64,000 nt of DNA from Lepraria neglecta. Taxonomy: Eukaryota; Ascomycota; Lecanoromycetes; Lecanorales; Stereocaulaceae. The notes beneath the pieces were generated by a model, which saw only the letters and a list, made by a program, of their open reading frames with translations, was not told where the DNA came from and did no database searches. Position numbers and translations under genes: made by a program. Shown in pieces: positions 6,873 to 58,303 of this stretch. Location: the NCBI GenBank assembly GCA_033220425.1, contig CM065648.1:1488001-1552000 (forward strand), in the 5' to 3' direction. The first letter of the stretch is position 1. Every line of letters starts with the position of its first letter.

Positions 6873-7396
6873 ATAAGAGAAGACTAGTTAAAACTCTCGG
6901 GGCCCTTAAGGCTAGGGGGGAGGTCGAACTGCTCGGAGCTAACGTTAAATATTAGACCGTCGGGGGTATCAGAAGGAAGACCCTTATCCTTCTCCAGTTC
7001 CTCGATATTCTATAACTCGCGCTCGACTAGTCTTTTCTCTTTATCTTAGATATAATCGAATTATAATTAAAGGCGTATAAGTTTCGCCTATATTTCCTTT
7101 ATTTTAGACTAAGTATTATCGCGGACTTTCTTAATATAATATATCTTATCGATAGATATAATAAGGTCGTACTTCTTACCTATAGCTATATAGTTAGAAT
7201 AATAATCTAAACGGACGCCTACTAAGTATTACTTATTACCCTTTGTATAAAGAGTATAAGGATATATTATAAACCTAGATAATTCGCTAGAGAGTTCTTT
7301 ACGACGGATAAAGGGATCTTTAGAATAGATAGTTCGACGAGGAGGTATAAAGGATAGATAGTTTCTCAGGACGAGAAATCTAGAGGAGGGGGCTAG
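6873..7396 (-). pseudogene. Antisense Zn2Cys6-like/coiled-coil ORF relic in element 1
   Basis: On the strand opposite gag-pol, between the chromodomain and the 3' LTR, a long frame runs with few stops. Residues PYTLYTKGNKQYLVGV and following have Tyr at positions spaced x2, x6, x8, x2, x6 (7169-7258). The equivalent positions in sister copies keep Cys, which gives the C-x2-C-x6-C-x8-C-x2-C-x6-C pattern of fungal binuclear zinc clusters. A charged, probably coiled-coil stretch follows, then the shared tail motif LIFNVSSEQFDL. The pattern is seen directly. That it was a DNA-binding zinc cluster is inference. Confidence 0.62.
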
Positions 7397-7839
7397 TATT
7401 AGAACTATTGGTTCTGACAGGACTATCCTATAGGACACGGTACTATAGATAGGACTGTCCTGTAGGACACGGTACTATAGACAGGACTAGTAGCTGAAGC
7501 GATGAGCGCGACGAGCGCTAGCGCTTATAGCGCTCAGGAATAATAAGCGTAATAAGCGCCAGCGCTTATAACGCTTATGGAGTGCTTGGTAGGATTTCAT
7601 ATATCTATATATACGGGGCTTTGCCTACTATTTGGAATAGCGTATTCAACTTGGTTAATCTTCCTGGTACTCCTTGTACTATACTTTACTAGTTATCAAT
7701 ATAGAACGTATTGACTACCTATATATACGAAGACTGCTATTCTACCTGAGTAACTCCTCTCCTACAGAAGCATAAGATATACGAAACCTATACCCGGTTA
7801 TCGCACCGTTAGGTTAATAATCGGACGTGGGTCGTAACA
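7397..7839 (+). repeat. 3' LTR of gypsy element 1
   Basis: 443 bp. It is longer than the 5' LTR because a ~32-bp unit around tataggacacggtactatag is duplicated. It ends gtcgtaaca and is followed by the AGAAG target duplication. Confidence 0.9.
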
Positions 7840-9821
7840 AGAAGCTCTGTTCTTAGAAGCGTATTACTTTAGTAGTAGCCTCTTTAGGTATTACTATAAC
7901 CCTATTAGATAGTAGACGTACTACCTATTCGCGATTCAAGATCCTATTAGATACTAAGAGTACGTCCAGTTACGGTATTTAGAAAGGGACTAATCTCGCA
8001 GAGTTAATTAAGCGGGCTTATATCATCTTCTAGGACGAAGCGCCTATATAGAGTCATTTCGCTATTGAATACGTTAGCTATTCTTTATAGAATCTTTGCG
8101 GTAATAATAGTACTTACTTTGGTAGCAAGGTCGTTTGCTTTTGCGGCGATTTCCGTTAGACCTTGCCAGTAGTCCTAGGGGGGACCGTAGGCGTTATTAT
8201 TAATGCCTGTATCTAGAAGGCGGCGTTCTAGGACGAGGTAACTATTCTTCGCCTTACTACTAATATATATCTAAGTAATAGAGGTCTCATCGAAGAAGAT
8301 AGACGGCGAATAGTAGAATTTACCGAAGCTCTCCTATATATTAGTAATAGTAAAGGTAATATAGTCGACCTAATCACTAAGGATAAGAAGTCTCCCTAGA
8401 AATATAGATACCTACTAGGGAATACTATAGACGTACTAATTAATAAAATTTATCCTACTATTAGTAGAGATCTTCTAGACTAGTACTATCTAACTAAATA
8501 AGTAATTCTAGCTATTATAAACAAGAATGTCTAGAGAGTAAACAACTATATTCTTAACCGTATACGGGGCGACTACTATAAATACTAGAGTTTCGATCAA
8601 GCGGTAAACCCTAAAGAAAACGAGATATTCCCTAATAAGTACTAGAATAAATTCTATAAGCCCTTACTACTACCGTATAAGCTATAGTTAAAGGTAGGGA
8701 CGCCAGTAATATTAATAAGGAACTTAGATATACCCCGTCTCTATAATAGGACCTATATTCTACTTACCGAATATAAGAGATATATCCTTAAGGGTAATAT
8801 TATAGATAGGAGTTTCGACGGTAGCGAGGTAGTCTTATATAAGATCCCTTTATAGTCTAAGGATAGTAATAAGTATATCCCTACCCCGTTCACCCGCAAG
8901 TAGTTCCCTATACGCCCTACCTTCGTAATAACTATTAATAAGTTATAGGGGCAGTCGATATAGTATATAGGACTTAATCTATAGTCCCGTCTAGTATTTA
9001 CCTATAGGCAATTTTATATTAGTAACTCGCGCGTTACTATAGAGTTGAACCTATATATAATAGGTCTAGATTTAGATAACTATATTAGGTATAAGCTTAT
9101 AAGTAACCCGGTCTATAAGTAGATACTACTATAGGTCTAGTACTTGTAGAACGGTACTTATAGAATAGTTATAGCTAATAGGAGTTACTTAAAACGACGC
9201 TAAGCCTCTTTAGGAATATATATCAAACTTGTAGATTGCGGCAATCGACTTTTCAGTACGATTCAGGGTTAGATTTTACTTAGTATAGCTATTATTTAGA
9301 CTTAATAAATAGCGGTAACTATATCTTAACGCTTAAAGATATTAGCTAATAAGCTTGCAGGCGTATAGGTATAGGTTATATTATAGTCCCGGTATGGTTT
9401 CTCTATAAATAATCGCGATATTACTATTATATAACCTCGCCGTCGATAGGTATAAAAATATATATTTACACGTAGAAGTCTCAGCCCTATACCAAGCCCT
9501 ACGTTATAGCGCGCGTGTTTAGCCAATCGGGATTTCACAGGCCTAGTACTAGCTTAGGACTATAAAATATTTAGCTAATTAGCGCTAATTCTAGACCCGA
9601 GAAATAGCCAAGCGCGCGTTAAGGCCGCCCTTTAGTATTAAAATCTGAATATTTTAATAACTTTAGAAGTATTAGAGTTAGAGCTTAACTTTATATATAT
9701 AAAATATACTATAAATAGAGGGCTTTCTAACTCTACTTAAATTTTCTAAATCGAGTATAAAATAAGCGAGATATAGCCGGGTTTATAGTAATCTTCTATA
9801 AAGATTATAGATACTAACTTA

Positions 9822-10435
9822 TATAATAATAAGATATTAGATATAATAAAGCTAATACTATTCTTTACTAATTATAGAAAGAATATAAATACTTTTCTAT
9901 AATCTAGAGAGGGACCTAATATAGAAAAAGCCTTAGTAAAGATAGATAAGCTAAAGAATTTATAGAAGGATATATAAAGATCTATTAAAAGCTTAAATTC
10001 TAAACTAAAGAAAGGAATTAATAAGAAAAGAAAGAATATTCCTTAGTTAAAGAAGAGGGATAAAGTATATCTTCTAATAAAAAATATAAGAATAATAAGA
10101 CTAAGTAAGAAACTAGATTATATTAAGATTAGACTATTCTTAATTAAATAGATAAAAGGACCTATTAACTATAAACTTAAGCTTCTACCTAATACTAAGG
10201 TATATCTAGTATTCTATATCTTACTCTTAGAGCTAGTAGACTCTAATATACTCTTATAGGAAATATTTTATTATAATATTAAAGAAGAAATAGAGTTTAA
10301 GGTTAAGAGGATTCTAAACTAGATTAATTAGAAATATCTAGTTAAATAGAAAGGGTATAACGATACCGAAAATATCTAGAAACTACTTAAGAATCTTATA
10401 AACTACTAGGGACTTATATAAGAGTTCCGGGAGTA
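9822..10435 (+). pseudogene. Integrase C-terminus and chromodomain relic of gypsy X copy A
   Basis: The translation shows the post-catalytic integrase segment (ILFFTNYRKNINTF-like), the basic GPY-type region (NIPQLKKRDKVYLL-like) and a chromodomain near 10280-10410, with many TAG/TAA codons. It lines up with the same region of elements 1-4. Everything upstream of this point in the ancestral element is missing or replaced by the Helitron. Confidence 0.8.
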
Positions 10436-10575
10436 TTATAGAAGGAGGACTAATTAGTTCTATCTAGGAAGCTAAATTATTTAGATAAGATATTAAATAT
10501 CTAGCTATTAGGAATACTTAGGATAGACTACTAGTCTTCTTCTAACTCCTTAATATTCTATATCTCTTAGTCTAT

Positions 10576-11032
10576 TATTAAGACCCAAGGATATACTAGA
10601 GGGAACGCGCTGCGGGCGCACGAAGGGGCATGGGCTTGGCAGGGTCTAGTTCAGACGAATCGATGTTCGACTCGTTCGACCCGGACATAGTTTAGACGAA
10701 TCGATGTTCGACTCGTTCGACTCGGATATAGTTTAGACGAATCGATATTCGACTCGTTCGAATATAAAGACTTGGCAGGGATTTCCTATTGCTATATATA
10801 TAGAGTACTACTTACTACTTGGAGCATCGTGCTCAACTTCTGTTTACATCTAGTACTCTACTATATACGATAGATCTCTTAGGCTAGGCACTGAATATAT
10901 ACATCCTCTGATTATATACTAGACCCGCTTAGTATCACTTGAAGCCTACTTCATACTCTTGCTCTATTGTATACCTATCCTAGTGAGAATCAATCTACAC
11001 TACGACCACCGCACGTAACGTGGTTCGTAACA
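10576..11032 (+). repeat. 5' LTR of element 2 with triple U3 repeat
   Basis: 457 bp, from tattaagacccaagg to ggttcgtaaca. Three tandem ~50-bp units containing GACGAATCGATGTTCGACTC lie at about 10650-10762, a layout typical of U3 enhancer repeats. The segment gatagatctcttaggctagg is shared with the other gypsy LTR types here. Confidence 0.9.
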
Positions 11033-11069
11033 CTTTAAGCACCCTCAAGGATAAGTACTCTACTAAGAG

Positions 11070-14000: not shown

Positions 14001-16255
14001 TAAGAACAAGAAAGAGTATATTAAATATATATAGGATATTATCAAATACCTGTCGCAAGCGAAACTTCTTCTTAAACTAGAAAAGTGCGAATTTTATCGG
14101 GAATCGGTAGAATTTCTAGGATTTATAGTTAGTATAAAAGGTATTAGTATAAGCCCGGAAAAGATTAAGGCTATCGCTAAATAGCCTATACTATAGGACG
14201 TTAAAGTAGTATAAAGCTTCTTAGGATTTACTAACTTTAATAGGAAGTTCATCGAGGGCTACTCCAAGAAGGTACTATCTCTAATAGATATTACGAAGAA
14301 AGATATTAGATTTATATAGAGAAAAGACTAATAGAAATCATTCGATATATTGAAGAAAGTATATACGGATCTACTAGTACTCTATACCTTTCAGGCCAAC
14401 GAACCGGCCTATATAGAAATAGATACCTCGGATCTTGTAATCGGAGTATACCTATATTAAATAAAAGACTAAAAGTAGTATCTAGTTACCTACTATTTAA
14501 GGAAGATATTAGTAGTAGAATAAAACTATAATATATACGATAAGGAGCTACTTGCCGTAGTATATACATTATAGAACTGGCGAGTATACGTAGAGAGCTA
14601 CTTAGACTTAACTATCTTTACGGATTATAAGAATCTTCTTAACTTTATAATAACGAAAGAGTTAAATAGAAGATAGATTCAATAGTTAGAACTATTAGGT
14701 CAATATAAATTCAAGATAACCTATACTCTAGGAAAAGATAATAGTCGAGTAGATACCCTTAGTAGGCGATTAGACTATATAGAAGAAAAGAATATTATAG
14801 AATAACTAATTCTAAAGAAAGAAGCGGACGGATCGCTAGTACTATACTAGGTATTAGCAGCGACCCTTCGTATATTAGGACCTAATACGACTAATAGGAT
14901 CGTAAAGGCCTATAACGACGATATATTTGCAATAAACCTACGAAAGGATCAATAGGATTTAGTATTACTTAAATACTAGGACAAGATCTACTTACCTGAT
15001 ATATACGTTAAAGAAGTAATTAGGGATTACTATAATAACCCTTTATAAGGTTACCCTAGAGTATCTAAGATAATAGAACTTCTAGGACGAGGATACGCGG
15101 CGCTAAAGCTTCGAGCGCGCGTTAAATAATATATTAAAGAATATATCGAGTGCCAGCAGAATAAAGCGGTATAATACGCCAAGTATAGACAAATATAATT
15201 TACTTCTATACTAGAGTTACTATAGGATAATATTATAATGGACTTTATAGTCAAGCTACTACTATTAAAGGACCTAGCTACGTAGGATACCTTTAACTTA
15301 ATTATAGTTATTATAGATAAACTTATAAAGTATATAATTATAATACCTTTCAAAGAAACCTATAAAGTAGATTAGCTAGCTTTCGTACTACTCGACAAGC
15401 TAATAAGGGATTATAGTATACCTAAATCGATAATATCCGATAGAGATAAGCTATTTACGTCTAACTACTTGAGAACGCTAATAGTAGTAATTAGAACTAA
15501 ACTTCGGATATTAATAGTATATTATCTATAGACTAATAGATAAATAGAACGTGCTAATTAAATAATAGAAGTATACTTAAGGTATTATATAAACTAGAAG
15601 TAGGATAACTAGATTTTACTACTCCTAATAGTATAACTAGCGTATAATAATAATAAGTTAGATATAATAGGCCTGATACTATTCTTTGCTAACTATAGAA
15701 AGAATATAAATATATTTCTATAACCTAGGAAAGGACCTAATATAGAAAGAGCCTTAGTTAAGGTAGAAGAGCTTAAGAATTTATATAAGGATATATAAAA
15801 GTCTATTAAAAGCTTAAATAGTAAGTTAAAGGAATAAGTTAATAAGAAAAGAAAGAATATTCCTTAGCTAAAAGAGGGGGATAAAGTATACCTCCTAATA
15901 AAAAATATAAGGATAAAGAGACTAAGTAAGAAACTAGATTATATTAAGGTCGGACTATTCTTAATCAAATAGGTAAAAGGACCTATTAACTATAAACTCT
16001 AACTACTACCCGACGCCAAAGTATATCCGGTATTCTATATCTTACTCTTAGAGCTAGTAGACTCTAATACACCTCTCTAAAAAACGTTTTACTATAATAT
16101 TAAGGAAGAAACAGAGTATAAGGTCAAGAGGATCCTAGATAGAAGGAATTAGTTCTATCTAGTTAAATAGAAAGGGTATAACGAGACGGAAAATACCTGG
16201 GAACCTCTTAGGAACCTTGCGGGGAACTGTAGGGAACGTCTACAAGAGTTCTATT
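11070..16255 (+). pseudogene. Gag-Pol relic of gypsy element 2
   Basis: Gag: a stop-free stretch of 94 codons at 11549-11833 holds RGLKDNIKDELIRSG and NTLDKLIEEAIEIDNKLFER, typical of chromovirus Gag. The zinc knuckle near 11891-11945 keeps one Cys and the His (CYSYSKPGHFTRDYKS). Protease DSGA is intact at 12910-12921. RT catalytic YLDD reads YLDN at 13975-13986. RNase H and integrase (KSIISDRDKLFTSNY-like near 15420-15470) follow, then a chromodomain near 16105-16225. Stops are frequent from the end of Gag onward. It encoded the structural and copying proteins of the element and is now inactive. Confidence 0.9.
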
Positions 16256-16809
16256 AGAAACAAGAGAGGACCAGTCGAAGCCCTCGGGGGCTTCTAAACT
16301 ATCGAGGAGATCGAAATATTCGGACGAGACGTTGAACGGAAGATTATTAGGATTAAGTAGAGCGGCTTCGTCGCGCTCTACCTCCTTAATATTTAGCAGC
16401 TCACGACGAACCAACAGATCTTCCTCCTCTTCAAGCTTCTTAACTTTACAGTTTAGCCTTGAAGTACGCGCAGTAAGCTCGGCTTACTTTCGGAGCGCTT
16501 TACGTAGCGCAGCTATCTTTTCATAGCGTTTCCTTTATATATAGCGAAGCTTGGCCTCGGAGAAGGCAAGCTTACAAGACAGCCCAGACGACGCGCACTC
16601 CACGCACGACTCCGATTCGGTCCTAATACAGTACTCCTTATCACGGCGAATATAGCACTTATACTTCCGTATAATAATAACGGCGGCACTCGAGCTAGCG
16701 AGAATGCGCTGCCTTCTAATTACTGATCTGGATAGGATCTCAGGGTTTGGTCGAGGTATAGAGGATAGCAGGTTATCCTCAGGACGAGAATTCTAGAGGG
16801 GGGAGCTAA
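16208..16809 (-). pseudogene. Antisense Zn2Cys6-like/coiled-coil ORF of element 2 (best preserved)
   Basis: The least damaged copy of the antisense gene. On the minus strand only about two stops interrupt roughly 200 codons, and the last 69 codons (16414 to 16208) are open. The cluster at 16574-16663 reads Y-x2-Y-x6-Y-x8-C-x2-C-x6-C: the last three Cys survive (SCVECASSGLSCK) and the first three are TAT/TAC, as expected from TGT/TGC after RIP. A Lys/Glu-rich probable coiled coil (LRKALRK, KKLEEEEDLLVRRELL) follows, then the tail LPFNVSSEYFDLLDSL. The spacing matches a Zn(II)2Cys6 cluster. The function is unknown; a regulator of the element or of host genes is conjecture. Confidence 0.68.
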
Positions 16810-17266
16810 TATTAAGACCCAAGGACATGCCAGGGGGAACGCGCTGCGGGCGCACGAAGGGGCATAGGCTTGGCAGGGTCTGGTTCAGACGAATCGATAT
16901 TCGACTCGTTCAACCCGGACATAGTTTAGACGAATCGATGTTCGACTCGTTCGACTCGGATATGGTTCAGACGAATCGATATTCGACTCGTTCGAACATA
17001 AAGGCTTGGCAGGGATTTCCTATTGCTATATATGCAGAGCACTACTTACTACTTGGAGTATCGTGCTCAACTTCTGTTTATATCTAGTACTCTACTATAT
17101 ACGATAGATCTCTTAGGCTAGGCACTGAATATATACATCCTCTAATTATATACCAGACCCGCTTAGCATCACTTGAAGCCTGCTTCATACTCTTGCTCTG
17201 TTATATACCCATCCTAGTGAGAATCAATCCATACTACGACCACCGCACGCAACGTGGTTCGTAACA
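16810..17266 (+). repeat. 3' LTR of element 2
   Basis: 457 bp, the same length as the 5' LTR, with the triple GACGAATCGAT-containing unit at about 16882-17000. It is preceded by a polypurine tract (agaggggggagc) and followed by TSD TCTAT. Confidence 0.92.
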
Positions 17267-17682
17267 TCTATAATCTTCTACTTTTTATTTTTAAGTTATT
17301 TATACTATATCTAAAGGTATATTAGTATAGCCTAAAGATATATAGACTCTTCCGTATTATAGGCTAACTCTTCGCGTATAGTTTTTAATTATAACTATAC
17401 TTCCTTTTATTCTATCTTAATATAATATATCTTAAGAGGTAATACTATAAGGTTATATTTCCTACTACTATCTATATAGTTAGAATATCTATTAGACCCT
17501 ATACCTATTAAGTACTACTTATCGCTAGTAATATATCGAGAATATAGCCGTATTACAACTTTAGTTAGCTTACTAGCTAATACCGTTTAGCGGATAGTTA
17601 GTTTATCTAAATATTTAGTATATTAGGGTAGTATAAAGGATAGATAGTTTCTTAGGACAAGAAATCTAGGAGAGGGAGCTAA

Positions 17683-19314
17683 TATTATAATTAGGAAATA
17701 TAATCAGGGATACGCTTAAGGAGTATAGTACCTATTATAGTTTGAGTTAACGAATTAGTATCCGACTTAGATAGACTCTAAAGGCTTAGTATACTAAGCG
17801 ATAAGCGTAGAGAGCGCAACGAGCGCAGTATAATTAGTGCGATCAATGCGATCAAGAATGCTTGGCATGGATTTCGTATATCTATATATACGGAGTACTA
17901 CTTACCACTTAGAGTATCGTGCTCAACTTACTTCTTACCTTTCGTATCTAAACTATATACGATAGATCTCTTAGGCTAGGCACTAAATATATATTATCTA
18001 ATTACAAGTGAGTGCCTGTAATCTTCACAGAAGATTACCGTAAAAATGGCTATATCTCGCTTATTTTATACTCGATTTAGGAAATTTAAGCGGATATAGA
18101 AAGCTATCTATTTATAGTATATTTTATATATATAAAGCTAAGCTCTAATCCTAATAGGACAAAAGTTATTAAGGATTTAGTATATTAGTACTTCGGGGGC
18201 GGCTGCGGGGGTAGCTTTAGGGAACTCCGCAGGTAAAAATATATTTTTTAAGCTTTCCTTAGCTAAATCTTTAGTTAGAAAGCGTATACTTAGTTCCAAA
18301 ACTTATAAAATTATCTTGATATTATATAACGTATATAGCGCGGGGTATCGCTGCGAAGAAGTTGCGGTGCGTATTCAACTTTCGATATTCTAGGTCCGGG
18401 GGTGCCTAGCTTAATACTTGGTATTTACTACCGAGCTTGCGCTACCCGCAAAACATAGCGAAAACACTTCTTTTACTTATAAGTTTTGCGTAAATAGACC
18501 GATTTTGAAAATTCTGACGGTGTTAGAAAGCGTATACTTGGCTCTAGAACCTACGAGATTATCTCGATATTATATAACGTATATGGCGCGGGGTATTGCT
18601 GCGAAGAAGTTGCGGTGCGTATTCAACTTTTGATATTCCAGGGTCCGGGGGCGCCAAGCTTAATACTTAGTATTTGCTACTAAGCTCGCGCTACTAGCAA
18701 AATATGGCGAAAACGCATCTTTTAGTCATAACCATTGCGTAAATAGGCCGATTCTAAAAATTCTTAATACGTAAGCAAGCTAGTAATTAAGTCCAAAGCT
18801 TATAAAATCCTCTCGATATTATATAGTGTATATAGCGCAGGGCATTACTGCGAAGAAGTTACGGTACGTATTCAACTAAGCTTGCGCTACCCGTAAAACA
18901 TGGCGAAAACGCTTCTTTTACTTATAACTATTACGTAAATAGGCCGATTCTAAAAATTCTTGATACGCAAGCAAGCTAATAATTAAGTCCAAAACTTATG
19001 AAATTATCTTGATATTATATAACGTATATAGCGCGGGGAAGTACTGCGAAGAAGTTGCGATACGAATTCAAGTTTTGGTAGTTGAAGGCGCTAGGCCGAA
19101 AAGCGTACTATCAGGGGGGAGAAGTATAGGGCTATTCTAATTGGCTATAAATGCGGAATTACTCCGAATATCGCGATAATCTATTATTAGAAGAAAGATA
19201 TACTAGACCCGCTTAGTATTACTTAAAGCCTACTTTATACTCTTATTAGATTATACCTCTATCTCTATTAAGAATCAATCTATATACGATACTAGTACGT
19301 AACGTGTTCGTAAC
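17683..19314 (+). repeat. 3' LTR of gypsy X copy A, split by a short Helitron
   Basis: The LTR runs 17683-18004 and 19199-19314 (438 bp). Joining the two parts gives atctaattatatactagaccc, exactly the uninterrupted sequence of the LTR near 63774. This proves a clean insertion with no target duplication. It ends ttcgtaaca. Confidence 0.9.
18005..19198 (-). mobile_element. Non-autonomous Helitron N1 (1194 bp)
   Basis: Read on the minus strand it starts TCTTTCTTCTAATAATAG and ends with the 9-bp-stem hairpin GTAATCTTC/GAAGATTAC, then ...CACTCACTTG. It sits between A and T of an LTR with no target duplication, as Helitrons do. Both ends match the RepHel copy at 22027-30750, so that family probably supplied the transposase. 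The interior has no gene. It consists of about four tandem ~200-250-bp units, each starting GCGCGGGGTATCGCTGCGAA or similar (at about 18336, 18583, 18834 and 19030). Confidence 0.85.
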
Positions 19315-20862: not shown

Positions 20863-22026
20863 TTAGCTCCCTCTCCTAGATTTCTTGTCCTAAGAAACTA
20901 TCTATCCTTTATACTACCCTAATATACTAAATATTTAGATAAACTAATCGTCCGCCGAATAGTATTAGCTAGTAAGCTAACCAAAGTTGTAATACGGCTA
21001 TATTCCCGATATATTACTAGCGGCAAGTAGTACTTAATAGGTATAGGGTCTAATAGGTATTCTAACTATATAGGTAGTAGTAGGAAATATAATCTTATAG
21101 TATCGCCCTTAAGATATATTATATTAAGATAGAATAAAAGGAAGTATAGTTATAGTTAAAAACTATACGCGAAGAGTTAGCCCGTAATATAGAAGAGTCT
21201 ATATATCTTTAGGCTATACTAATACGCCTTTAGATATAGTATAAATAACTTGAAAATAAAAAGCGGAAGATTATAGACTAAAAGATATAGAATATTAAGG
21301 AGTTAGAAGAAGACTAGTAGTCTATCCTAAGTATTCCTAATAGCTAGATATTTAATATCTTATCTAAATAATTTAGCTTCCTAGATAGAACTAATTAGTC
21401 CTCCTTCTATAATACTCCCGGAACTCTTATATAAGTCCCTAGTAGTTTATAAGATTCTTAAGTAGTTTCTAGATATTTTCGGTATCGTTATACCCTTTCT
21501 ATTTAACTAGATATTTCTAATTAATCTAGTTTAGAATCCTCTTAACCTTAAACTCTATTTCTTCTTTAATATTATAATAAAATATTTCCTATAAGAGTAT
21601 ATTAGAGTCTACTAGCTCTAAGAGTAAGATATAGAATACTAGATATACCTTAGTATTAGGTAGAAGCTTAAGTTTATAGTTAATAGGTCCTTTTATCTAT
21701 TTAATTAAGAATAGTCTAATCTTAATATAATCTAGTTTCTTACTTAGTCTTATTATTCTTATATTTTTTATTAGAAGATATACTTTATCCCTCTTCTTTA
21801 ACTAAGGAATATTCTTTCTTTTCTTATTAATTCCTTTCTTTAGTTTAGAATTTAAGCTTTTAATAGATCTTTATATATCCTTCTATAAATTCTTTAGCTT
21901 ATCTATCTTTACTAAGGCTTTTTCTATATTAGGTCCCTCTCTAGATTATAGAAAAGTATTTATATTCTTTCTATAATTAGTAAAGAATAGTATTAGCTTT
22001 ATTATATCTAATATCTTATTATTATA
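20863..22026 (-). mobile_element. Gypsy X copy B, truncated relic
   Basis: The reverse-complement counterpart of 9822-10575 plus 17267-17682 without the nested element 2. It contains, on the minus strand, integrase C-terminus and chromodomain remnants (about 21440-22000), then the polypurine tract and LTR. It joins Helitron copy B at 22027 at the same base context as copy A joins Helitron A, so both arms descend from one composite. Confidence 0.85.
20890..21440 (+). pseudogene. Antisense Zn2Cys6-like ORF relic of gypsy X copy B
   Basis: On the plus strand (opposite to this copy's pol) the cluster region at 21001-21090 again has six Tyr codons in the spacing x2, x6, x8, x2, x6 (YSRYITSGK then YLIGIGSNRYSNYIGSSRKY). 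Charged residues and the tail follow toward 21330-21440. Several stops interrupt it. It is uninterrupted by insertions, so it gives the full layout of the gypsy X version. Confidence 0.5.
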
Positions 22027-22789
22027 TAAGTTAGTATCTATAATCTTTATAGAAGATTACTATAAACCCGGCTATATCTCGCTTATTTTATACTCGATTT
22101 AGAAAATTTAAGTAGAGTTAGAAAGCCCTCTATTTATAGTATATTTTATATATATAAAGTTAAGCTCTAACTCTAATACTTCTAAAGTTATTAAAATATT
22201 CAGATTTTAATACTAAAGGGCGGCCTTAACGCGCGCTTGGCTATTTCTCGGGTCTAGAATCAGCGCTAATTAGCTAAATATTTTATAGTCCTAAGCTAGT
22301 GCTAGGCCTATGAAATCCCGATTGGCTAAACACGCGCGCTATAATATAGAGCTTGGTATAGGGCTGAGACTTCTACGCGTAAATATATATTTTTATACCT
22401 ATTAGCGGCGAGGTTATATAATAGTAATATTATAATTATTTATAGAGAAACCACATCGGGACTATAATATAATCTATATCTATACGCCTATAAGCTTATT
22501 AGCTAATATCTTTAAGCGTTAAGATATAGTTACCGCTATTTATTAAGTCTAAATAATAGCTATACCGAGTAAAATCTAACCCCGAATTATACTGAAAAGT
22601 CGATTACCGCAATCTATAAGTTTAATATATATTCCTAAAGAGGCTTAGCGTCGTTTCGAGTAACTCCTATTAGCTATAACTATTCTATAAGTACTATTCT
22701 ATAAGTACTAGACCTATAGTAGTACCTACTTATAGACCGGGTTATTTATAAGCTTATACCTAATATAGTTATCTAAATCTAGACCTATT

Positions 22790-24570
22790 ATATATAGGTT
22801 CAACTCTATAGTAACGCGCGAGTTACCGATATAAAATTGCCTATAGGTGAATACTAGACGGGACTATAGGTTAAGTCCTATATACTATATCGACTGCCCC
22901 TATAACTTATTAATAGTTATTACGAAGGTAGGGCGTATAGGGAACTACTTGCGGGTGAACGGGGTAGGGATATACTTATTACTATCCTTAGACTATAAAG
23001 GGATCTTATATAAGACTATCTCGCTATTATTAAAACTCCTACCTATAATATTACCCTTAAGGACGTGTCTCCCGTATTTAGTAAGTAGAATATAGGTCCT
23101 ATTATAGAGACGGGGTATATCTAAGTTTCTTATTAATATTACTGGCGTCTCTACCTTTAACTATAGCTTATATAGTAGTAGTAAAGGCTTATAGAATTTA
23201 TTCTAGTACTCGTTAGGGAACATCTCGTTTTCCTTAGAGTTTACCGCTTAATCGAAACTCTAGTATTTATAGTAGTCGCCCCGTATATAGTCGAGAATAT
23301 AGTTGTTTACTCTCTAGATATCCTTATTTATAATAGCTAGAATTACTTATTTAGTTAGATAGCGCCGGTCTAGAAGATCTCTGCTAATAGTAGGATAAAT
23401 TTTATTAATTAGTATATCTATAGTATTCCCTAGTAGGTGTCTATATTTCTAGGGAGACTTCTTATCCTTAGTAATTGGGTCGACTATATTACCTTTGCCG
23501 TTACTAATATAGAGGAGAGCTTCGGTAAATTCTACTATTTACTACCTGTAAGGGCCGATTATAGAGATACTAGACTAGGTTCGGGAGACTATCCCTCTAG
23601 TGCGGCTATACGATAGCGCAAGTCGTATAGTGGATCGGTTTGATACGAGAGTATAATCTCCCTCGATAAATATATTGTCTCTAAGGACTCCCATTTGGGT
23701 TCCTTAGGATTTAGTCTATCTAGTAGCAAATCCACCAGTTGTATCAGTCACGCATACCTAGACCCCGTTACACCACCTACCTTCTTCGGTAAAACCTCTA
23801 TTACTTAGATATATATTAGTAGTAAGGCGAAGAATAGTCACCTCGTCCTAGAACACCGCCTTCTAGATACAGGTATTAATAATAACGCCTACGGTCCCCC
23901 CTAGGACTACTAGTAAGGTCGGACGGAAATCGCCGCAAAAGCAAACAACCTTGCTACTAAAGTAAGTACTATTATTATCGCAAAGATCCTATAAAGAATA
24001 GCTAACGCATTCAACGGCGAAATAACTCTATATAGGCGCTTCGTCCTAGAAGATAATACAAGCCCGCTTAATTAACTCTGCGAGATTAGTCTCTTTCTGA
24101 ATACTATAACTGGATATACTCTCAGTATCTAATAGGATCTTGAATCGCGAATAGGTAGTATATCTACTATCTAATAGGGTTATAGCAGTATCTAAAGAGG
24201 CTACTACTAAAGTAATATACTTCTAAGAATAGAGCTTCTTTAGAATAGTATTCTAGACTATAGTCTTCCTAGTACCTCTAGCGCCGTTTAAAAAGAATAG
24301 TACGCCTATATCAAATTTATTATTCTTATTCTTATCTACTACCGCTATAATCTTTTCGGCTACTAGGTATTAGTCGGTATTAAACTTCTACTATTTAACC
24401 TCTATATCTTCTAGTATAATATTATAAGACATTTCTTCGCGTAGTAGGTAGTTCTGAATCCGTAATTTATATAGAAGATCGAATGGAATAATAACCGGCG
24501 GAAGGTTAAATAGCTCGAGGCTAAGGCTACTTTCGGTAGTAGACTAGTAGTCTAACTAGCCAGAAATCAA
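22790..24570 (-). pseudogene. Pif1-like helicase part of Helitron B RepHel
   Basis: The minus-strand translation mirrors copy A: Walker A GAGGT/RKT coding at about 24262-24290, DEAP and CGDFRQTLPVV motifs near 23930-24060, and C-terminal LKVG-PVILIRNLD near 23110-23150. This copy is uninterrupted over the helicase, unlike copy A, but stops (TAG/TAA) occur throughout. Comparison with copy A shows that the two were mutated independently. Confidence 0.82.
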
Positions 24571-30600: not shown

Positions 30601-30750
30601 AAGTAGTACGAAGAAGTTACGATACGAATTCAAGTTTTAATAGTTAAAGGCGCTAGCCGAGAGAGGGAATACAGAATATAGGGCCAATCTGATTGGCTGC
30701 AAGTGCGGAATTGCTCCGAAAGTCCTCATAATCTATTATTAGAAGAAAGA

Positions 30751-31415
30751 TATGGCGCGGGGTATCGCTGCGAAGAAGTTGCGGTGCGTATTCAACTTTT
30801 GATGAGGTCCGGGGGCGCCAAGCTCAATGCTTGGCATTTGCCACCGAGCTTGCGCTGCCCGCAGAACATGGCGAAAACGCTTCTTTTGCTTATAAGTTTT
30901 GCGCGAATAGACCGATTTTGAAAATTCTGACGGTGTTGGAAAGCGCATACTTGGTTCCAGAACTGATGAGATTATCTCGATATCATATAACGTATATGGC
31001 GCGGGGTATCGCTGCGAAGAAATTGCGGTGCGTATTCAACTTTTGATGTTCCAGGGTCCGGGGACGCCAAGCTCAGTGCTTGGCATTTGCCAGCGCTGCA
31101 AAACATGGCGAAAACGCTTCTTTTGCTCATAACTATTGCGCAAATGGGCCGATTCTAAAAATTCTTGATGCGCAAGCAAGCTAATAATTAACTCCAAAAC
31201 TTATGAAATTATCTCGATATAATATCACGTATATAGCGCGGGCAAGTAGTGCGAAGAAGTTGCGATGCGTATTTCGATTTTGATATTCTTGCTTGGCGGC
31301 GCCAGGCCGAAGAAGGCAGTTTAGGCAAAGAAGTCTCGAAGTATAGGGCCATTCTAATTGGCTATAAGTGCGGAATGCCTCCGAAAGTCGCGATAATCTA
31401 TTATTAGAAGAAAGA
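30751..31415 (-). mobile_element. Truncated Helitron 5'-end fragment
   Basis: It repeats the family 5' end: on the minus strand it begins TCTTTCTTCTAATAATAG at 31415 and contains the GCTGCGAAGAAGTTGCG units. The family 3' hairpin is missing and it stops where Helitron B starts. Many CpA and TpG sites remain, so it is less RIP-altered than its relatives. The stop-free stretches of 70 or so codons inside it recur in several Helitron copies as by-products of the repeated unit and are not convincing genes. Confidence 0.7.
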
Positions 31416-32848: not shown

Positions 32849-32869
32849 ATATAGGTACTTTAAATTTAA

Positions 32870-41917: not shown

Positions 41918-41919
41918 TA

Positions 41920-42237: not shown

Positions 42238-42459
42238 TTAGAAGTTAGACACAAAGCTCTGCCAACTGGCTACAATAGTATCTACTATATCTATACCTAG
42301 ACTTACTTGCTTATAGATAGGTATAAAGACTCCCTATCCGAGGTACTCTTCTATAGAGATATAAGCTAGCTCCGATTTTACCTGATCTAGAGCTATAAAA
42401 ATCTTATTCATTTCTCTATAGTATCTATCTATATTACTCTTTAACTCCTTAGCTATTAG
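42238..42459 (-). pseudogene. Coiled-coil gene relic, C-terminal segment
   Basis: The minus strand reads LIAKELKSNIDRYYREMNKI, then ALDQVKSELAYISIEEYLG, and ends ASWQSFVSNF at stop 42238-42240. One TAG and few other defects are present. Upstream the frame continues at 48956-49235, on the other side of gypsy element 3. I do not recognise the family. The charged heptad-like sequence suggests a coiled coil. Confidence 0.5.
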
Positions 42460-42869
42460 TATTAGAACTATTGGTTCTAACAGGACTGTCCTATAGGACA
42501 AGGTACTATAGACAGGACTAGCAGCTGAAGCGATGAGCGCGACGAGCGCCAGCGCTTATGGCGCTCAAGAATGATGAGCGCAATGAGCGCTAGCGCTCAT
42601 AACGCTCATGGGATGCTTAGCAGGATTTCCTATATCTATATATACGGGGCTTTGCCCGTTGTTTGGAACAGCGTATTCAACTTAGTTAATCTTCCTAGTA
42701 CTCCTTGTACTATACTTTACTAGTTATTAATATAGAACGTATTAACTACCTATACTACGAAGACTGCTATTCTACCTGAGTGACTCCTCTCCTACAGAAG
42801 TATAAGACTATACGTATCTATACCTAGTTATCGTACCGTTAGGTAAACGACTAGATATAGGTCGTAACA
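42460..42869 (+). repeat. 5' LTR of element 3
   Basis: 410 bp, tattagaact to gtcgtaaca, with GAGCGC-rich repeats and a TATA-rich stretch before CGGGGCTTTGCCC. Confidence 0.9.
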
Positions 42870-42959
42870 CTTTAAACACCCTAAGGGATGAGTTCTTTAA
42901 CAACTTCAGGCAGAAACCCTACCCCAAGCACCTCAACGGTTACTAGCTAGAGACGCTAA

Positions 42960-48055: not shown

Positions 48056-48062
48056 CATCGGA

Positions 48063-48586
48063 GATAAGAGAAGACTAGTCGAAACTCTCAGGGCCCTCTA
48101 GGCTGGGGGGAGGTCGAACTACTCGGAGCCGATATTGAATATTAGACCGTTAGGAGTATCGGAAGGAAGATCCTTATCTTTCTCTAACTCCTCAATATTC
48201 TATAACTCGCGCTTAACTAACTTTTTCTCTTTATCCTAGATATAATCGAATTACGATTAAAGGCGTATAAGTTTCGCCTGCGTTTCCTTTATTTTAGACT
48301 AAGTATCGTTATAGACTTTCTTAATACGATGTATCTCATCGACGGATATAACTAGGTTATACTTCTTGCCTATAGCTACGTAGTTAGAATAACGATCTAA
48401 ATGGACGCCTACTAAGTATTACTTATTACCCTTCGTACAAAGAGTATAAGAATATATCACGAACCTAGATAATTTACTAGAGAGTTCTTTATAACGGATG
48501 AGGGGATCTTTAGAATAGATAGTTCGACAAGGAGGTATAAAGGATAGATAGTTTCTCGGGACGAGAAATCTGGAGGAGGGGGCTAG
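48063..48586 (-). pseudogene. Antisense Zn2Cys6-like ORF relic of element 3
   Basis: A minus-strand frame with few stops. The cluster at 48359-48448 reads Y-x2-C-x6-Y-x8-Y-x2-Y-x6-Y: the second Cys survives (YTLCTKGNK), while the others are Tyr. The spacing is identical to the other copies. A charged region and the FN-SS-tail continue toward 48120. Confidence 0.6.
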
Positions 48587-48955
48587 TATTAGAACTATTG
48601 GTTCTAATAGGACTATTCTGTAGGACAAGGTACTATAGATAGGACTAGTAGCTGAAGCGATGAGCGCGACGAGCGCTAGCGCTTATAACGCTTATAGGAT
48701 ACTTGGTAGGATTTCCTATATCTATATATACGGGGCTTTGCCCGTTGTTTGGAATAGTATATTCAACTTAGTTAATCTTCCTAGTACTCCTTGTACTATA
48801 CTTTACTAGTTATTAATATAGAACGTATTGACTATCTACACTACGAAGACTGCTATTCTACCTGAGTGACTCCTCTCCTACAGAAGTATAAGACTATACG
48901 TACCTATACCTAGTTATCGCACCGTTAGGTAAACGACTAGACGTGGGTCGTAACA
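48587..48955 (+). repeat. 3' LTR of element 3
   Basis: 369 bp, about 40 bp shorter than the 5' LTR because one GAGCGC repeat block is lost (near 48660-48690). It ends gtcgtaaca, followed by ATCAG. Confidence 0.9.
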
Positions 48956-49235
48956 ATCAGCTTCTACTTATATATATACTTCTTGAGTTTTCTATTATCT
49001 ATCTATAGCTACTAGATAGTAACTTTTAGTTTACTAGCTTCTAATTCAGCTAGTCGTCTCCTTTCCGACTCTATAGTAACCTAATATTCCTATTTACTAA
49101 TTTTACAAGTTAATCTAACGTTGTCCTAGTATAGGTTATTAATCTTTACTACAAAACTAACTTCCGGTCTAGGAAATTCTAGAAACTTATTAGGTAGTTA
49201 GCTAATCGTCGAATTAACAAGAACGAGTAGCGTAT
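48956..49235 (-). pseudogene. Coiled-coil gene relic, middle segment
   Basis: The minus strand reads FLEFPRPEVSFVVKI-like and then VTIESERRRLAELEASKLKV, allowing for RIP stops and one frame change, and joins the 42238-42459 segment across element 3. It shows the charged, Leu-periodic character of a coiled coil. The upstream part lies beyond element 4 at 58749 onward. Confidence 0.45.
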
Positions 49236-49680
49236 TATTACGATTAGGAAATATAATTAGGAATACGCCCTAGGGGCGTAGCGCCCGTTATGGTTCGAGT
49301 CGATAAATTAGTATCCGACTCGGACAGGACCCTGAAGCTTGGTATAAGCGCAATGAGCGTAGTACGATCAATACGATCAAGAATAATAAGCGTAATAAGC
49401 GTAGTATAATCAACGCGATTAAGAAAGGCTTGGTAGGATTTCCTATTGCTATATATACGAGTACTTACTTACTACTTAGAGTATCGTGCTTAATCTTACT
49501 ATTTAATTGTCTACTATATACGATAGATCTCTTAGGCTAGGCACTGAATATATATTATCTAATTATATATTAGACCCGCTTAGTATTACTTGAAGTCTAC
49601 TTCATCTCTTATATACTTATACCTCTATCCCTATTAAGAATCAATCTATAATACGATACTAGTACGTACGGTTTATAATA
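49236..49680 (+). repeat. 5' LTR of element 4
   Basis: 445 bp, tattacgattagg to a RIP-altered end tttataata (ancestral ttcgtaaca). It holds GATCAA/GAGCGT-type short repeats and a TATA-rich promoter-like stretch. Confidence 0.9.
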
Positions 49681-51370
49681 CTTTAAGTACCCTTAAGGAT
49701 AAATACTATACTAAGAGACTCTAGGGTACCTACTCTAAGCTCCTTAGGAGGAGGAAGCGGATAAAGGCGCCCTACTATTAATAAAGGACTTAGTAGATAT
49801 ATCAAGATAGCCTAGCCCGACTTATATTATAGAGAAAGAGATAAGCTCGAAGGATAGCTATTATAGATATTATTATATCTGAAGTTCTAAGGGGACTTTA
49901 TATCTATTTAACGATATTCTACCTTTACTATTACTTACTTATATAGAAGAGCCTAAAAGTAGGTTAATCTATTTCTAAAGAAATATATAGAAGATAACGA
50001 CGAAGATAGAGAGATTAAATAGTAGATAGAGAGTATAGTAATATTTAGGCTCGAAATCCGTCGTATATTCGGACTATCTAACGAAGTTAATATAGCGATA
50101 TAAACTATCTAATATCTAACCTAAAAGAAGTCTATATTAGAGTACTTAACTTAATTTTAATAGTATATAGTAAAGATAGACTAGGATAATAATATATTAA
50201 TAACTATATATCGAAGAGGTCTTAAGGATAATATTAAAGATAAACTTATAAGATTAGGGATTATTATAGATACCCTAGATAAGCTAATTAAAGAAGTAAT
50301 TAAAATTAATAATAAACTATTTAAGAGGACTATAGAGAAGAGGTACGACGAAGGAGTTAGCGGAATAGGATACTTAAGCTTTTTTACTAAATCGAAGAGC
50401 TACTACCTAGGATATAAAGGAGACCGCGACCCTTATAGATATATACTAATAGAACTAGACTTTATAGAGAAGAAAGGGAAACTAGTCTTTAGGGGTCTAG
50501 GAAGGGGTAAGAAGTAGTATAGGGGCAAGAAAATACTAAAGTGTTATAGCTATAGCAAACCGGGCTACTTTACTAGAGACTACAAGTCGAAAAATATAGT
50601 ATATTAATCGTAGCTAAATGTACTAGAGAAAGTATATACCTAGGATAATATAGACGATACGTCTAAGGAAGAACTACTAATATAGGATAAAGTCGGAGGA
50701 GATATTAGCTCCTAGTATAATAGGATAATATAAGATAAACTCGACGAAGAATCTAATAATAAGGACGAATTCGAAGACGAATCTAACTCTTATATTAGGG
50801 ACGAAAATAAAGAAAACCTAAGTATTAGAGATAGTAGTAATACTCGAGAAGAAAAGTATAAATAGGATTAGGATAAAGAAATAATTACTCTAGAGTAGAA
50901 AGAATCCCTCAGCACGTTAGAAGCTAAATAGGAAGATATATAACTACTAAGATAATTAATATCTAGATCTACTATATCTAAGGAAGAAGGAAACTCTAAA
51001 GAATAACTAGAATATATAGAATCTAAAGGGAAGTAAGAAGCAAAAGAGTAGAGGATAAGAGAGCTATAGGCAAGCATCGAAATCGAAAAAGACTATCGAT
51101 ATAATATCTTCTATCCGGACCACTAGAGAATAGAGTAGAGATACTATATAGACCGGCTATACCTATCGTATGAGCCAGGGAGGCAATATACCAATAGAGA
51201 ATTATCTAAAGGATATAGTTTCTAACGATAGATATACTATACTAAAGACTTATATAAATAGTACCTAGCTTAGAAGCGAAAATATTAGTACTTCCCGGGG
51301 TATAGTTAGATATAGATAAACAACTTATATAGAGAATTAATCTACGACCTATATATAGAAGAATATTATA

Positions 51371-53014
51371 TCTTCTTATAATAATAGATTATCGCGACTT
51401 TCGGAGGGTATTCCGCACTTATAGCCAATAAGATCGGCCCTATACTTCTCCCCCCTGATAGTACGCTTTTCGGCCTAGCGCCTTTAACTACTAAAACTTG
51501 AATTCGCACCGCAACTTCTTCGTACTACTTCCCCGCGCTATATATATTATATAATATCAAGATGATTTCATAAGTTTTGGAGTCAATCATTAGCTTGCTT
51601 GCGTATCAAGAATTTTTAGAATCGGCCTATTTACGCAATAGTTATAAGTAAAAGAAGCGTTTTCGCTATGTTTTGCTTGTGTACCGTAACTTCTTCGCAG
51701 GACTTCCCCGCGCTATATACATTATATAATATCGAGATGATTTCATAAGTTTTGGAACCAAGTATACGCTTTCTAACACCGTCAAAATTTCTTCGCACTA
51801 CTTCCCCGCGCTATATATATTATATGATATCAAGATGATTTCATAAGTTTTGGAGTTAATTATTAGCTTGCTTGCGCATCAAGAATTTTTAGAATCGGCC
51901 TATTTACGCAATAGTTATAAGCAAAAGAAGCGTTTTCGCTATGTTTTGCTTGCGCACCGTAACTTCTTCGCAGGACTTCCCCGCGCCACATACATCATAT
52001 AATATCGAGATGATTTCATAAGTTTTGGAACCAAGTATACGCTTTCCAACACCGTCAAAATTTTCAAAATCGGTCTACTTGCGCAATAGTTATAAGCAAA
52101 AGAAGCGTTTTCACTATGTTTTATAGGTAGTGCGAGCTTAGTAGCAAATGCTAAGCATTGAGCTTGGCGCCTCCGGACCCTGGAACATCAAAAGTTGAAT
52201 ACGCACCGCAACTTCTTCGCAGTAATGCCCCGCGCCACATATGTCATATGATATCGAGATAATCTTATCAGTTTTGGAACCAAGCATACGCTTTCCAATA
52301 CCGTCGAAATTTTCAAAATCGGTCTATTTACGCAAAACTTATAAGCAATATTCGCACATGGCGATATGGCGCCGGATTGCCTATTCGCACATGGCGATAT
52401 AGCGATCATGGCACCGGATGGCTCATTCGCACATGGCGATATGGCGACGGATTGCCTATTCGCACATGGCGATATGGTATAGGATTGCCCATTCGGCACA
52501 TGGCGATATGGCGGTAGATTGCCTATTCGCACAGTTGGCGATATGGCACCGGATTGGCTATTCGCACATGGCGATATGGCGGCAGGTTGGCTATTCGCAT
52601 ATGGAGATATGGCACCGGATTGCTCTATTCGCACATGGCGATATGGCGGTAGATTGCCTATTCGCACATGGAGATATGGCACCGGATTGCTCATTCGCAT
52701 ATGGCGATATGGCGGTATGCTGCCTATTCGTTCCGGGGGCATTCCAATGGCTTCCGGGGGCGAAAAGTATCCTGGAACCATCCAAACCATGCAAAGCTTC
52801 AAAGATTATTTCTGTATCCTAGAGCTATCTAAATAGCCAGCTCTTATATATACCAAAACCGTTACTATTATATAAAGTTATAGGTAAGCTTATAATTTAA
52901 TACTATAGATAGATTACTTTCTAATTTCGCTTAAATTTTCTAAATAGAATATAAAATAAGCGAGATATATCCGTTTTACGATAATCTTCTGTGAAGATTA
53001 CGGGCACTCACTTG
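51371..53014 (+). mobile_element. Non-autonomous Helitron N2 (1644 bp) with a minisatellite
   Basis: Starts TCTTCTTATAATAATAGATT after an A and ends with hairpin GTAATCTTC/GAAGATTAC-type sequence and CACTCACTTG before a T. It carries the same ~200-250-bp units as the other short copies and in addition a 33-bp tandem array (52351-52726), which accounts for most of its greater length. No gene is convincing. The longest open frame (204 codons, minus strand) is created by the array. Confidence 0.85.
52351..52726 (+). repeat. 33-bp minisatellite, 11 units, inside Helitron N2
   Basis: Units of the form TTCGCACATGGCGATATGGC plus 13 bp, 33-34 bp each (one longer). The unit is a multiple of three, so open frames appear on both strands (for example RTWRYGG repeats). 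Units alternate between two variants (cggattgcct and cggtagattgcct types). Confidence 0.9.
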
Positions 53015-56000: not shown

Positions 56001-56590
56001 ATACTATTCTTTACTAACTATAGAAAGAATATAAATACTTTTCTAGAACTAAGGGAAAGCCCTAATACGGAAAAAGCCTTAGTTAAGGTAAATAAGCTAA
56101 AGAATTTATATAAGGATATATAAAGGTCTATCTAAAGCTTAAATATAAGGTTAAAGGAATAAATTAATAAGAAAAGAAAGAATATTCCTTAGCTAAAAGA
56201 GGGGGATAAAGTATATCTTCTAATAAAAAATATAAGGATAATAAGACTAAATAAGAAACTAGATTATATTAAGGTTAGACTATTCTTGATTAAACGGATA
56301 AAAGGACTAGTTAACTATAAACTTTAACTTCCACCTAACGCTAAAGTATATCTAGTATTCTATATCTTACTCCTAGAGCTAGTAGACTCTAGTATACCTC
56401 TCTAAGAAATATTTTACTATAATATTAAGGAAGAAATAGAGTATAAGGTCAAGAGGATCCTAGATAGAAAGAATTAGTTCTATCTAGTTAAATAGAAAGG
56501 GTATAACAAAACGGAAAATACCTAGGAACCTCTTAGGAACCTTGCGGGGAACTATAGAGAGTATCTATAAGAGTTCTATCGGAGATAAGA

Positions 56591-58303
56591 GAAGACCAGT
56601 CAAAGTTCTCGGGGGTATCTAGCCTATTAGGGAAATCGAAACGCTTAGAACTAATATTAAATATTAAGTTACTAGGAAGCTTAGGAGTAACGTATTAGTC
56701 CTCCTCTAGCTCTATAATATTCTATAGCTCTTAGTCTACTATCCTCTTCTTCTTATCTTTCTTCTAATAATAGATTATCGCGATATTCGGAGCAATTCCG
56801 CACTTATAGCCAATTAGAATAGCCCTATACTTCTCCCCCTCTGATAGTACGCTTTTCGGCCTAGCGCCTTTAACTACCAAAACTTGAATTCGTACCGCAA
56901 CTTCTTCGCAGTACTTCCCCGCGCTATATACGTTATATAATATCGAGATAATTTCATAAGTTTTGGACTTAATCATTAGCTTGCTTGCGCATCAAGAATT
57001 TTTAGAATCGGCCTATTTACGTAATAGTTATAAGTAAAAGAAGCGTTTTCGCTATGTTTTACGGGCAGCGCAAGCTTAGTTGAATACACACCGCAACTTC
57101 TTCGCAGCAATGCCCCGCGCTATATACGCTATATAATATCGAGAGGATTTCATAAGCTTTGGACTTAATTATTAGCTTGCTTGCGCATCAAGAATTTTTA
57201 GAATCGGCCTATTTACGCAATAGTTATGACTAAAAGATACGTTTTCGCCATATTTTGCTGGCAGCGCGAGCTCAGTAGCAAATACCAAGTATTGAGCTTG
57301 GCGCCCCCGGACCCTGGAACATCAAAAGTTGAATGCGCACCGCAACTTCTTCGCAGCAATACCCCGCGCCATATACATAATATAATATCAAGATAATCTC
57401 ATGGGTTCTAGAGCCAACTATACGCTTTCTAACACCGTCAGAATTTTCAAAATCGGTCTATTTACGCAAAACTTATAAGTAAAAGAAGCGTTTTCGCCAT
57501 GCTTTGCGGGCAGCGCAAGCTCGGTAGTAAATACCAAGCATTGAGCTAGGCGCCCCCGGACCTAGAACATCGAAAGTTGAATACGCACCGCAACTTCTTC
57601 GTAGCGATACCCCGCGCTATATACGTCATATAATATCAAGATAATTTTATGAGTTTTGGAACCAAGTATACGCTTTCTAACTAAAGATTTAGCTAAGGAA
57701 AGCTTAAAAAACATATTTTTGCCTGCGGAGTTCCCTAAAGCTACCCCCGCAGCCGCCCCCGAAGCACTAATATACTAAATCCTTAATAACTTTTGTTCTA
57801 TTAGGATTAGAGCTTAGCTTTATATATATAAAATATACTATAAATAGATAGCTTTCTATATCCGCTTAAATTTCCTAAATCGAGTATAAAATAAGCGAGA
57901 TATAGCCATTTTTACGGTAATCTTCTGTGAAGATTACGGGCACTCACTTGTCCTTAATAGAATTTAGCTACGCCTAAAGACATACTACTTTTACGAGCGC
58001 GTTGGTTATTTCATCTTGTAATTCGTTGCGCCGTCTTTCAACACGACGTATTTCAAGGACCGACACTATAAAGTCGTATTTTCTACTACTATTAATATAG
58101 TTGGAGTATCTATCGGAATTAGCACCTATAAGGTACTATTTGCCGCTGGCGATATATCGGGAGCAGGGCCGTATCACAAATCCGCTTAGTTCGCTAGCCA
58201 GTTCCGTTCGACGGATGGTTGGGTTCTTTAAACGTTTTATACAATAGGGTAGTATAAAGGATAGATAGTTTCTCGGGACGAGAAATCTGAGGGAGGGAGC
58301 TAA
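56591..58303 (-). pseudogene. Antisense Zn2Cys6-like ORF relic of element 4, split by Helitron N3
   Basis: The minus-strand frame starts near 58303 and is interrupted by the Helitron at 56756-57950. The cluster at 58076-58165 reads C-x2-Y-x6-Y-x8-Y-x2-Y-x6-Y: the first Cys survives (RPCSRYIASGK). After the Helitron the frame resumes with a charged stretch and the tail LIFNISSKRFDFPNRLDTPE. Confidence 0.6.
56756..57950 (+). mobile_element. Non-autonomous Helitron N3 (1195 bp)
   Basis: Starts TCTTTCTTCTAATAATAG after an A and ends at CACTCACTTG before a T, with an intact hairpin GTAATCTTC-tgt-GAAGATTAC 13 bases from the end. It is nearly the same length as N1 (1194 bp) in opposite orientation, with four internal GCTGCGAAGAAGTTGCG-type units. 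Lack of target duplication and end structure support Helitron identity. Confidence 0.87.

Follow-up and report, generated by a model that had tools for sequence, protein, structure and literature searches.

Antisense genes of long terminal repeat (LTR) elements have been listed for years with no known function, and antisense open reading frames (ORFs) of this kind, again of unknown function, lie between pol and the 3' LTR in plant elements as well as in Boty of Botrytis and Sclerotinia (PMC7264820, accessible portion). The plant aORF-3R (Grande gene23, RIRE2, Retand TRP28 and PvRetro13) occupy this same place in antisense and are conserved, and a nuclear or DNA-binding role is suspected for the plant proteins in the accessible portions of two sources (PMC7264820, PMC11963269), the second of which gives the antisense TRP28 protein of Retand elements as predicted to bind DNA. 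Here we consider the gypsy elements in a 64,000-nucleotide stretch of the Lepraria neglecta genome (G000:C3:1488001-1552000, hereafter the window), which carry an antisense gene in the placement that characterizes aORF-3R, antisense and from pol to the 3' LTR. This antisense frame is a selected protein-coding gene between the chromodomain and the 3' LTR, and the product of its uninterrupted homologs has a cluster of six cysteines.

An earlier reading of the same stretch (the original prediction) had described six element copies, each with a frame opposite gag-pol in which cysteine or tyrosine occupies six spaced positions. A scan of all six frames for cysteine or tyrosine at codon offsets 0, 3, 10, 19, 22 and 29 found only six such places among 127,822 codon windows, and these are exactly the copies that had been named. 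The minus strand has five of them, at 7169-7258 (YYYYYY), 16574-16663 (YYYCCC), 17455-17544 (YYYYYY), 48359-48448 (YCYYYY) and 58076-58165 (CYYYYY); the sixth, at 21001-21090 (YYYYYY), belongs to the plus strand. Five places had been given exactly, while the one placed at 17456 should read 17455. The placement opposite gag-pol holds for all five minus-strand copies, and the copy at 21001-21090 lies on the plus strand because its element is inverted. The surviving cysteines were also as described, namely Cys 1 in element 4, Cys 2 in the copy there labelled element 3 (48359-48448, element 5 in our numbering) and Cys 4-6 in element 2. Position 3, said to be tyrosine in every copy, is so in all six copies of the window but is cysteine in 18 of 33 aligned copies from the genome.

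A search with the frame of the 16.5 kb copy identified three proteins free of interruptions, with identities of 49-51% and E values from 3e-27 to 2e-24. In each of them C-x2-C-x6-C-x8-C-x2-C-x6-C precedes a charged region, VRRELQNIEELEKDE and FLFNVSSESF. The six-cysteine ancestor with this spacing that the original prediction implied is thereby borne out; its FN-x-SS-x-x-FD tail was seen in the 16.5 and 7.2 kb copies, and the homologs have FLFNVSSESF. Profile searches gave 84 and 52 hits, amounting to 123 distinct proteins, all of them known as predicted protein sequences alone. All six columns are filled in 55 of the 84 homologs (the other 29 have no letter in at least one column), and of these 44 read CCCCCC and 11 differ by tyrosine alone, with 20 tyrosines in total and no other residue; the expectation that intact relatives have cysteine at these positions thus stood. 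A tolerant six-cysteine pattern occurs in 63 of the 123 homologs against 0.15 per shuffled set, the spacing being 2-6-8-2-6 in 41 of the 63 and varying by one or two residues in the rest. The invariant cysteines of our 17-member and 20-piece alignments, in contrast, are a selection effect and therefore no evidence, the members having been picked from the 44 homologs with all six cysteines. Most homologs are about 145-220 residues long and are laid out as an N-terminus that is basic in most (at least five Lys or Arg before the cluster in 32 of the 46 with at least 25 residues there), the six-cysteine cluster, a long charged region and a conserved tail. A species is given for two homologs only, from Lasallia pustulata (FRX48_07166) and Cytospora mali (VM1G_00771), the former labelled Zn(2)-C6 fungal-type in UniRef. 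The label RNase H-like nuclease on a further homolog, P0068, was set aside as automatic annotation, and a scan of viral contigs (viral_contigs) gave 33 pattern matches, none of them a relative.

In the 42.0 Mb of genome searched (11 contigs), homolog P0001 matches at least 150 places (150 scored of 393 candidates), and each of the 150 scored copies has at least one in-frame stop, nearly always TAG or TAA. We analysed 35 copies after dropping identical ones and matches covering fewer than 91 residues of P0001, so that the shortened pieces left in elements 3 and 4 are not among these counts, and the loci are best matches rather than a random sample. Of the 31 copies having all six positions, 30 show only cysteine or tyrosine there; summed over the positions (31-35 copies each), there are 128 cysteines, 72 tyrosines and one serine among 201 residues, and the other columns up to residue 60 contain 11 cysteines and 35 tyrosines among 1772. 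Stops are also rarer in the antisense frame (147 of 5060 codons, two of them TGA) than in any of the other five, the next lowest having 174 of 5025. The elements of the window are RIP-like (repeat-induced point mutation, RIP), with a TpA/ApT of 1.35-1.61 as against 0.75 in a nearby gene, presumably NACHT-WD. The suggestion that the tyrosine codons are RIP products is compatible with these data, and the number of tyrosines climbs with the RIP index over 31 copies (Spearman 0.66, p 5.5e-5). The gene is present in six of six window copies and at least 150 genome copies, as counted from matches to the gene itself. Among six genome regions that were fetched, the last pol piece lies opposite the end of the antisense gene in five, with overlaps of 38-128 nt as computed from match ends, and three show the order LTR, pol, antisense gene, LTR with a clear enclosing LTR pair.

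Because RIP makes transitions, selection was assessed from transversions only, N/S being the single transversions that change the amino acid against those that are silent, each relative to those possible; the underlying DNA alignments took no account of reading frame. Across 279 pairs, the antisense frame has an N/S of 0.25 and the remaining frames have 0.39-1.95. With 16 disjoint pairs and bootstrap limits, it is 0.17 (0.13-0.23) in the antisense gene, 0.24 (0.13-0.46) in the adjoining pol frame and 0.76 (0.48-1.79) in an upstream control, figures to be read with the caution that the copies are best matches, most of them picked for resembling P0001 at the protein level, a choice that may favour conserved copies. 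When the region is divided into 150-nt bins, selection is on the pol frame at +450 to +1050 and on the antisense frame from -150 to +450, the switch falling at +300 to +450; in the overlap of the two (+330 to +456) neither of them stands out (0.54 and 0.48, both with wide limits), and further upstream than -150 neither is clearly selected. The bin and bootstrap tests use 16 of 17 disjoint pairs, the second member of the dropped pair lying near a locus end. Distances in the antisense gene and in pol are modestly correlated (r 0.25, Mantel p 0.0005; 349 pairs among 31 copies, four of the 35 having been dropped as they offer no alignable pol flank), which fits joint descent. The antisense gene is conserved about as well as pol by N/S, yet is more diverged overall, with a mean transversion distance of 0.152 against 0.032 in local alignments. 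The six-cysteine homologs, the cysteine or tyrosine retained across the genome copies and the low transversion N/S together identify the antisense frame as a selected protein-coding gene. Given this strong purifying selection, the refuting outcome named in the original prediction, an antisense frame lacking such selection, did not occur. The view that the frame belongs to the element is likewise supported, and overall the interpretation offered in the original prediction is partly supported.

Self-comparison of the window recovered LTR pairs, all on the plus strand, for element 1 (1264-1678, start approximate, and 7395-7839, its start taken from likeness to the element 5 LTR, the BLAST pair running from 7451), element 2 (10572-11032 and 16806-17266, 93.9% identical), element 5 (42457-42869 and 48584-48955) and element 4 (49233-49681 and 58301-58749). 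The best preserved antisense gene of the window is that of element 2 (16211-16759, minus strand; cluster frame 16574-16663), which is 48% identical to P0001 over 16672-16211 by tblastn. It stands tail to tail with a chromodomain-like pol end at about 16117-16245 on the plus strand, named by eye from its motif, an arrangement shared by the window elements, where equivalents of this pol end begin at 6730, 47921 and 56442. The minus-strand genes of element 1 (6824-7348, cluster 7169-7258) and element 5 (48107-48538, cluster 48359-48448) were delimited by tblastn, the ATA described below and the codon scan. In element 4 a 1.2 kb repeat at about 56754-57951 interrupts the gene (56536-58255, minus strand), leaving an N-terminal part that includes the cluster at 58076-58165 and a C-terminal part at 56536-56730. 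Remnants of the gene, with approximate, hand-counted limits, lie in element 3 (17300-17634, minus strand, cluster 17455-17544) and in its inverted copy (20911-21277, plus strand, cluster 21001-21090). Four window copies have ATA where the homologs have their initiator methionine (7348, 16759, 48538 and 58255), and ATA is the expected RIP product of ATG. These start positions are 47 nt from the 3' LTR in element 2 and 46 nt in elements 5 and 4. For element 1 the distance is 103 nt if the BLAST boundary is used and 47 nt if the LTR start follows the element 5 LTR. By self-comparison element 2 lies within element 3, with 8309-10571 seeming to resume at 17267, and part of element 3 has an inverted copy, 96% identical, at 21270-23539. 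The 1.2 kb repeat of element 4 has an inverted, 96% identical counterpart (56754-57951 against 18004-19200), contains internal tandem units of 196/249 bp and also adjoins LTR-like sequence of element 3.

What such a protein might do is suggested by its architecture and by the LTRs. Zn2Cys6 domains (PF00172) have the cysteine pattern CX2CX6CX5-12CX2CX6-8C, with which the order and spacing of cysteines in the homologs agree, and a profile of the cluster aligned to eight Gal4-type domains with an hhalign score of 19.5 (probability 39.8%). The long charged region after the cluster may well form a coiled coil; its hydrophobic period is 3.5-3.6 in four of five homologs tested (4.05 in the other), and it has weak Pfam matches to assorted coiled-coil families. 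Of 13 LTR sequences, seven were tested, one per element; LTRs are alike among elements 1, 5, L039 and L042, and likewise between element 4 and L041. In the U3 halves of all seven, direct 8-mer repeats exceed shuffled sequences (3-115 pairs against means of 0.2-1.3, the observed number being reached by 0-3 of 200 shuffles), while the other halves of the same LTRs show no excess. The U3 of element 2 contains 41-bp tandem repeats with TCGA palindromes at 16881-16995 and 10647-10761, and other LTR families have different arrays. The simplest reading of the U3 arrays would be that a dimeric DNA-binding protein acts on them, and the antisense protein is most likely a DNA-binding regulator of its element's own LTR. 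The control of the element's sense RNA or of host genes that the original prediction envisaged would likewise be a putative function. In the explanation that we prefer, and to which we give somewhat better than an even chance, the cluster would bind zinc, antisense transcription would start in the 3' LTR, and the protein would form a dimer, enter the nucleus and bind the arrays of short repeats present in the U3 halves of the element's LTRs. Through this binding, whether repressing or activating, it would set the ratio of sense genomic RNA to antisense RNA, comparably to the antisense regulator of human T-cell leukaemia virus type 1 (HTLV-1) although with an unrelated domain. Transcription is placed in the 3' LTR since the start position lies about 46 nt away, and any antisense promoter is probably in or beyond this LTR.

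However, several observations weigh against this reading. None of the 84 homologs scanned (of 123, the 39 later ones falling outside the scan) reaches the Pfam Zn_clus cut-off of 21 bits, so that the proposed comparison with this family did not bear out membership; a single homol​og has E<=0.01, with the best score of 16.4 bits, P0001 scores 10.7 bits and the window copy has no match. The hhalign score of 19.5 is reached by four of 60 controls with shuffled non-cysteine columns and is not significant, the cluster profile has no match in the PDB below E 0.56 (a ferredoxin-like protein), and an arginine and a proline that are invariant in the Gal4-type comparison set are not conserved here. Three further PDB matches, at E 2.1-4.5, are to what we take to be Zn2Cys6 proteins. 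With Pfam scores below the cut-off, weak PDB matches and hhalign within its controls, we therefore call the cluster Zn2Cys6-like by its cysteine spacing, its membership of the Gal4-type family not being established; the binuclear zinc cluster of the original prediction thus stands as regards the order and spacing of its cysteines and falls short in Pfam score and profile similarity. Furthermore, the N-termini are not basic in 14 of 46 homologs, and at L044, one of the six genome regions, no pol is seen next to the gene. Only two of seven U3 halves (elements 1 and 5) have more inverted 8-mers than their shuffles, and palindromes differ among LTR families. CGG triplets are the usual targets of Zn2Cys6 proteins, and they are not enriched in the seven LTRs tested; the U3 repeats may equally serve host factors. 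The wider proposal, that a broad group of fungal gypsy chromoviruses encodes an antisense zinc-cluster transcription factor with a divergent binuclear cluster, binding family-specific U3 arrays in a self-contained regulatory or anti-silencing circuit independent of HBZ of HTLV-1, is one that we would put at slightly short of an even chance.

Small basic zinc-cluster proteins often bind RNA, and this counts for a different role, in which the protein would be a zinc-binding nucleic-acid chaperone, or a particle or pre-integration accessory factor, working on the RNA or cDNA of the element and regulating no transcription. The accessory-factor idea has been raised for antisense ORFs in the accessible portion of PMC7264820, and the resemblance to Gal4-type domains is not significant beyond the cysteine spacing. 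However, that order and spacing of cysteines are those of fungal Zn2Cys6 proteins, the charged region follows the cluster with its period of 3.5-3.6 residues in four of five homologs, and the U3 repeats offer candidate DNA sites; we consider this role unlikely, if deserving of attention. VANC proteins act in anti-silencing for plant VANDAL transposons, and the antisense protein might by comparison bind its own repeat arrays and shield the element from host silencing. Short U3 repeats in seven of seven LTRs tested would suit such a factor, as would an antisense gene more diverged than pol, which an arms race would lead one to expect; yet RIP has left the elements of the window heavily mutated, so that any protection against it failed, and we regard a shielding function as rather improbable.

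A recently captured host transcription-factor gene with no function in the element would account for a Zn2Cys6-like cluster, this being a fungal host domain type, but is very hard to reconcile with at least 150 diverged copies, with purifying selection and a divergence correlated with that of pol, and with a Zn_clus cut-off unreached in the 84 homologs scanned. Antisense RNA by itself has been proposed as regulatory in plant elements (PMC7264820, accessible portion), for instance through silencing mediated by double-stranded RNA, the open frame being incidental; strong protein-level selection on this frame and cysteines conserved in homologs of other genomes make this scarcely credible here, and it is already refuted by the transversion test, barring bias in that test. 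Finally, the chance that the conservation mirrors that of a sense frame sharing its wobble positions with the antisense frame is close to nil. Sense frame 2 is lowered too (N/S 0.35-0.40), but antisense frame 0 is lower (0.17; 0.25 against 0.39 over 279 pairs) and changes least at its middle codon position, as in coding sequence. We read the lowered sense frame 2 as itself a wobble mirror, since more changes fall on its middle position than on its first (3717 against 2631 for the 279 pairs, though only 72 against 62 for 17 disjoint pairs). The pol frame is sense frame 1, with N/S 2.53 in the region of the antisense gene, and the antisense reading is the one matched by proteins predicted in other genomes.

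Other features of the window include a GC-rich gene at 33892-38413 (plus strand), presumably NACHT-WD40-like, with two open frames and about 12 near-identical 126-bp repeats (95% matches), which is not RIP-like (TpA/ApT 0.75) amid RIP-mutated repeats. Two open frames at 39746-40905 (minus strand) resemble a DDE (pogo-like) transposase by eye, arrays related to the 1.2 kb repeat occur at 30393-31416 and 51364-52348, and 1-1267 and 24235-25495 form an inverted pair (92% identical).

The nearest known case appears to be brtn of Boty-like elements in Botrytis cinerea, reportedly treated by Zhao et al. in 2011 (Virology 417:248). In the accessible portions of PMC8365987, PMC4227169 and PMC5987419, brtn is the antisense gene of Botrytis Boty, likewise a gypsy element of a fungus and one with a CHROMO domain in its gag-pol; compared by description only, it is possibly homologous to the present family, and whether it belongs there bears directly on novelty. 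The plant aORF-3R proteins differ in having other domains (TRP28, SMC), with no six-cysteine cluster described in the accessible portions of PMC7264820 and PMC11963269. Since plant elements and Boty are already known to have antisense ORFs at the same place, the arrangement itself has precedents. None of the titles and abstracts searched dealt with an antisense gene of the zinc-cluster kind in a retrotransposon of a fungus; they leave subscription papers mostly uncovered and are weak evidence of novelty. Term look-ups in the accessible text of PMC3441728, PMC3248453, PMC4112212 and PMC10787394 showed no antisense ORF. By the literature searched, and on this weak evidence, the new part would be the zinc-cluster protein family at a known antisense place. 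As a biochemical lead the family offers its zinc cluster; it also supplies natural homologs free of interruptions, and the element's own LTR provides candidate binding sites.

Gal4-type Zn2Cys6 factors (PF00172) have their six cysteines in this order and at this spacing, with a coiled coil thereafter that is likely in the present family too; the family differs from them in staying below the Pfam cut-off, in its unconserved arginine and proline and in the small size of the protein. If it is a transcription factor, the family could be a source of host regulators and could also lead to genes being wrongly annotated as Zn2Cys6. HBZ, which is a bZIP protein, is likewise encoded in antisense by an LTR element, but its domain and host are unrelated to those of the present family, for which no bZIP family was seen in Pfam scans of the 84 homologs. 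The antisense promoter of HTLV lies in the 3' LTR and HBZ localises to the nucleus, according to the accessible portions of PMC7264820 and PMC11963269, respectively. If the zinc-cluster protein does regulate its element, fungi would have a counterpart of these retroviral antisense regulators.

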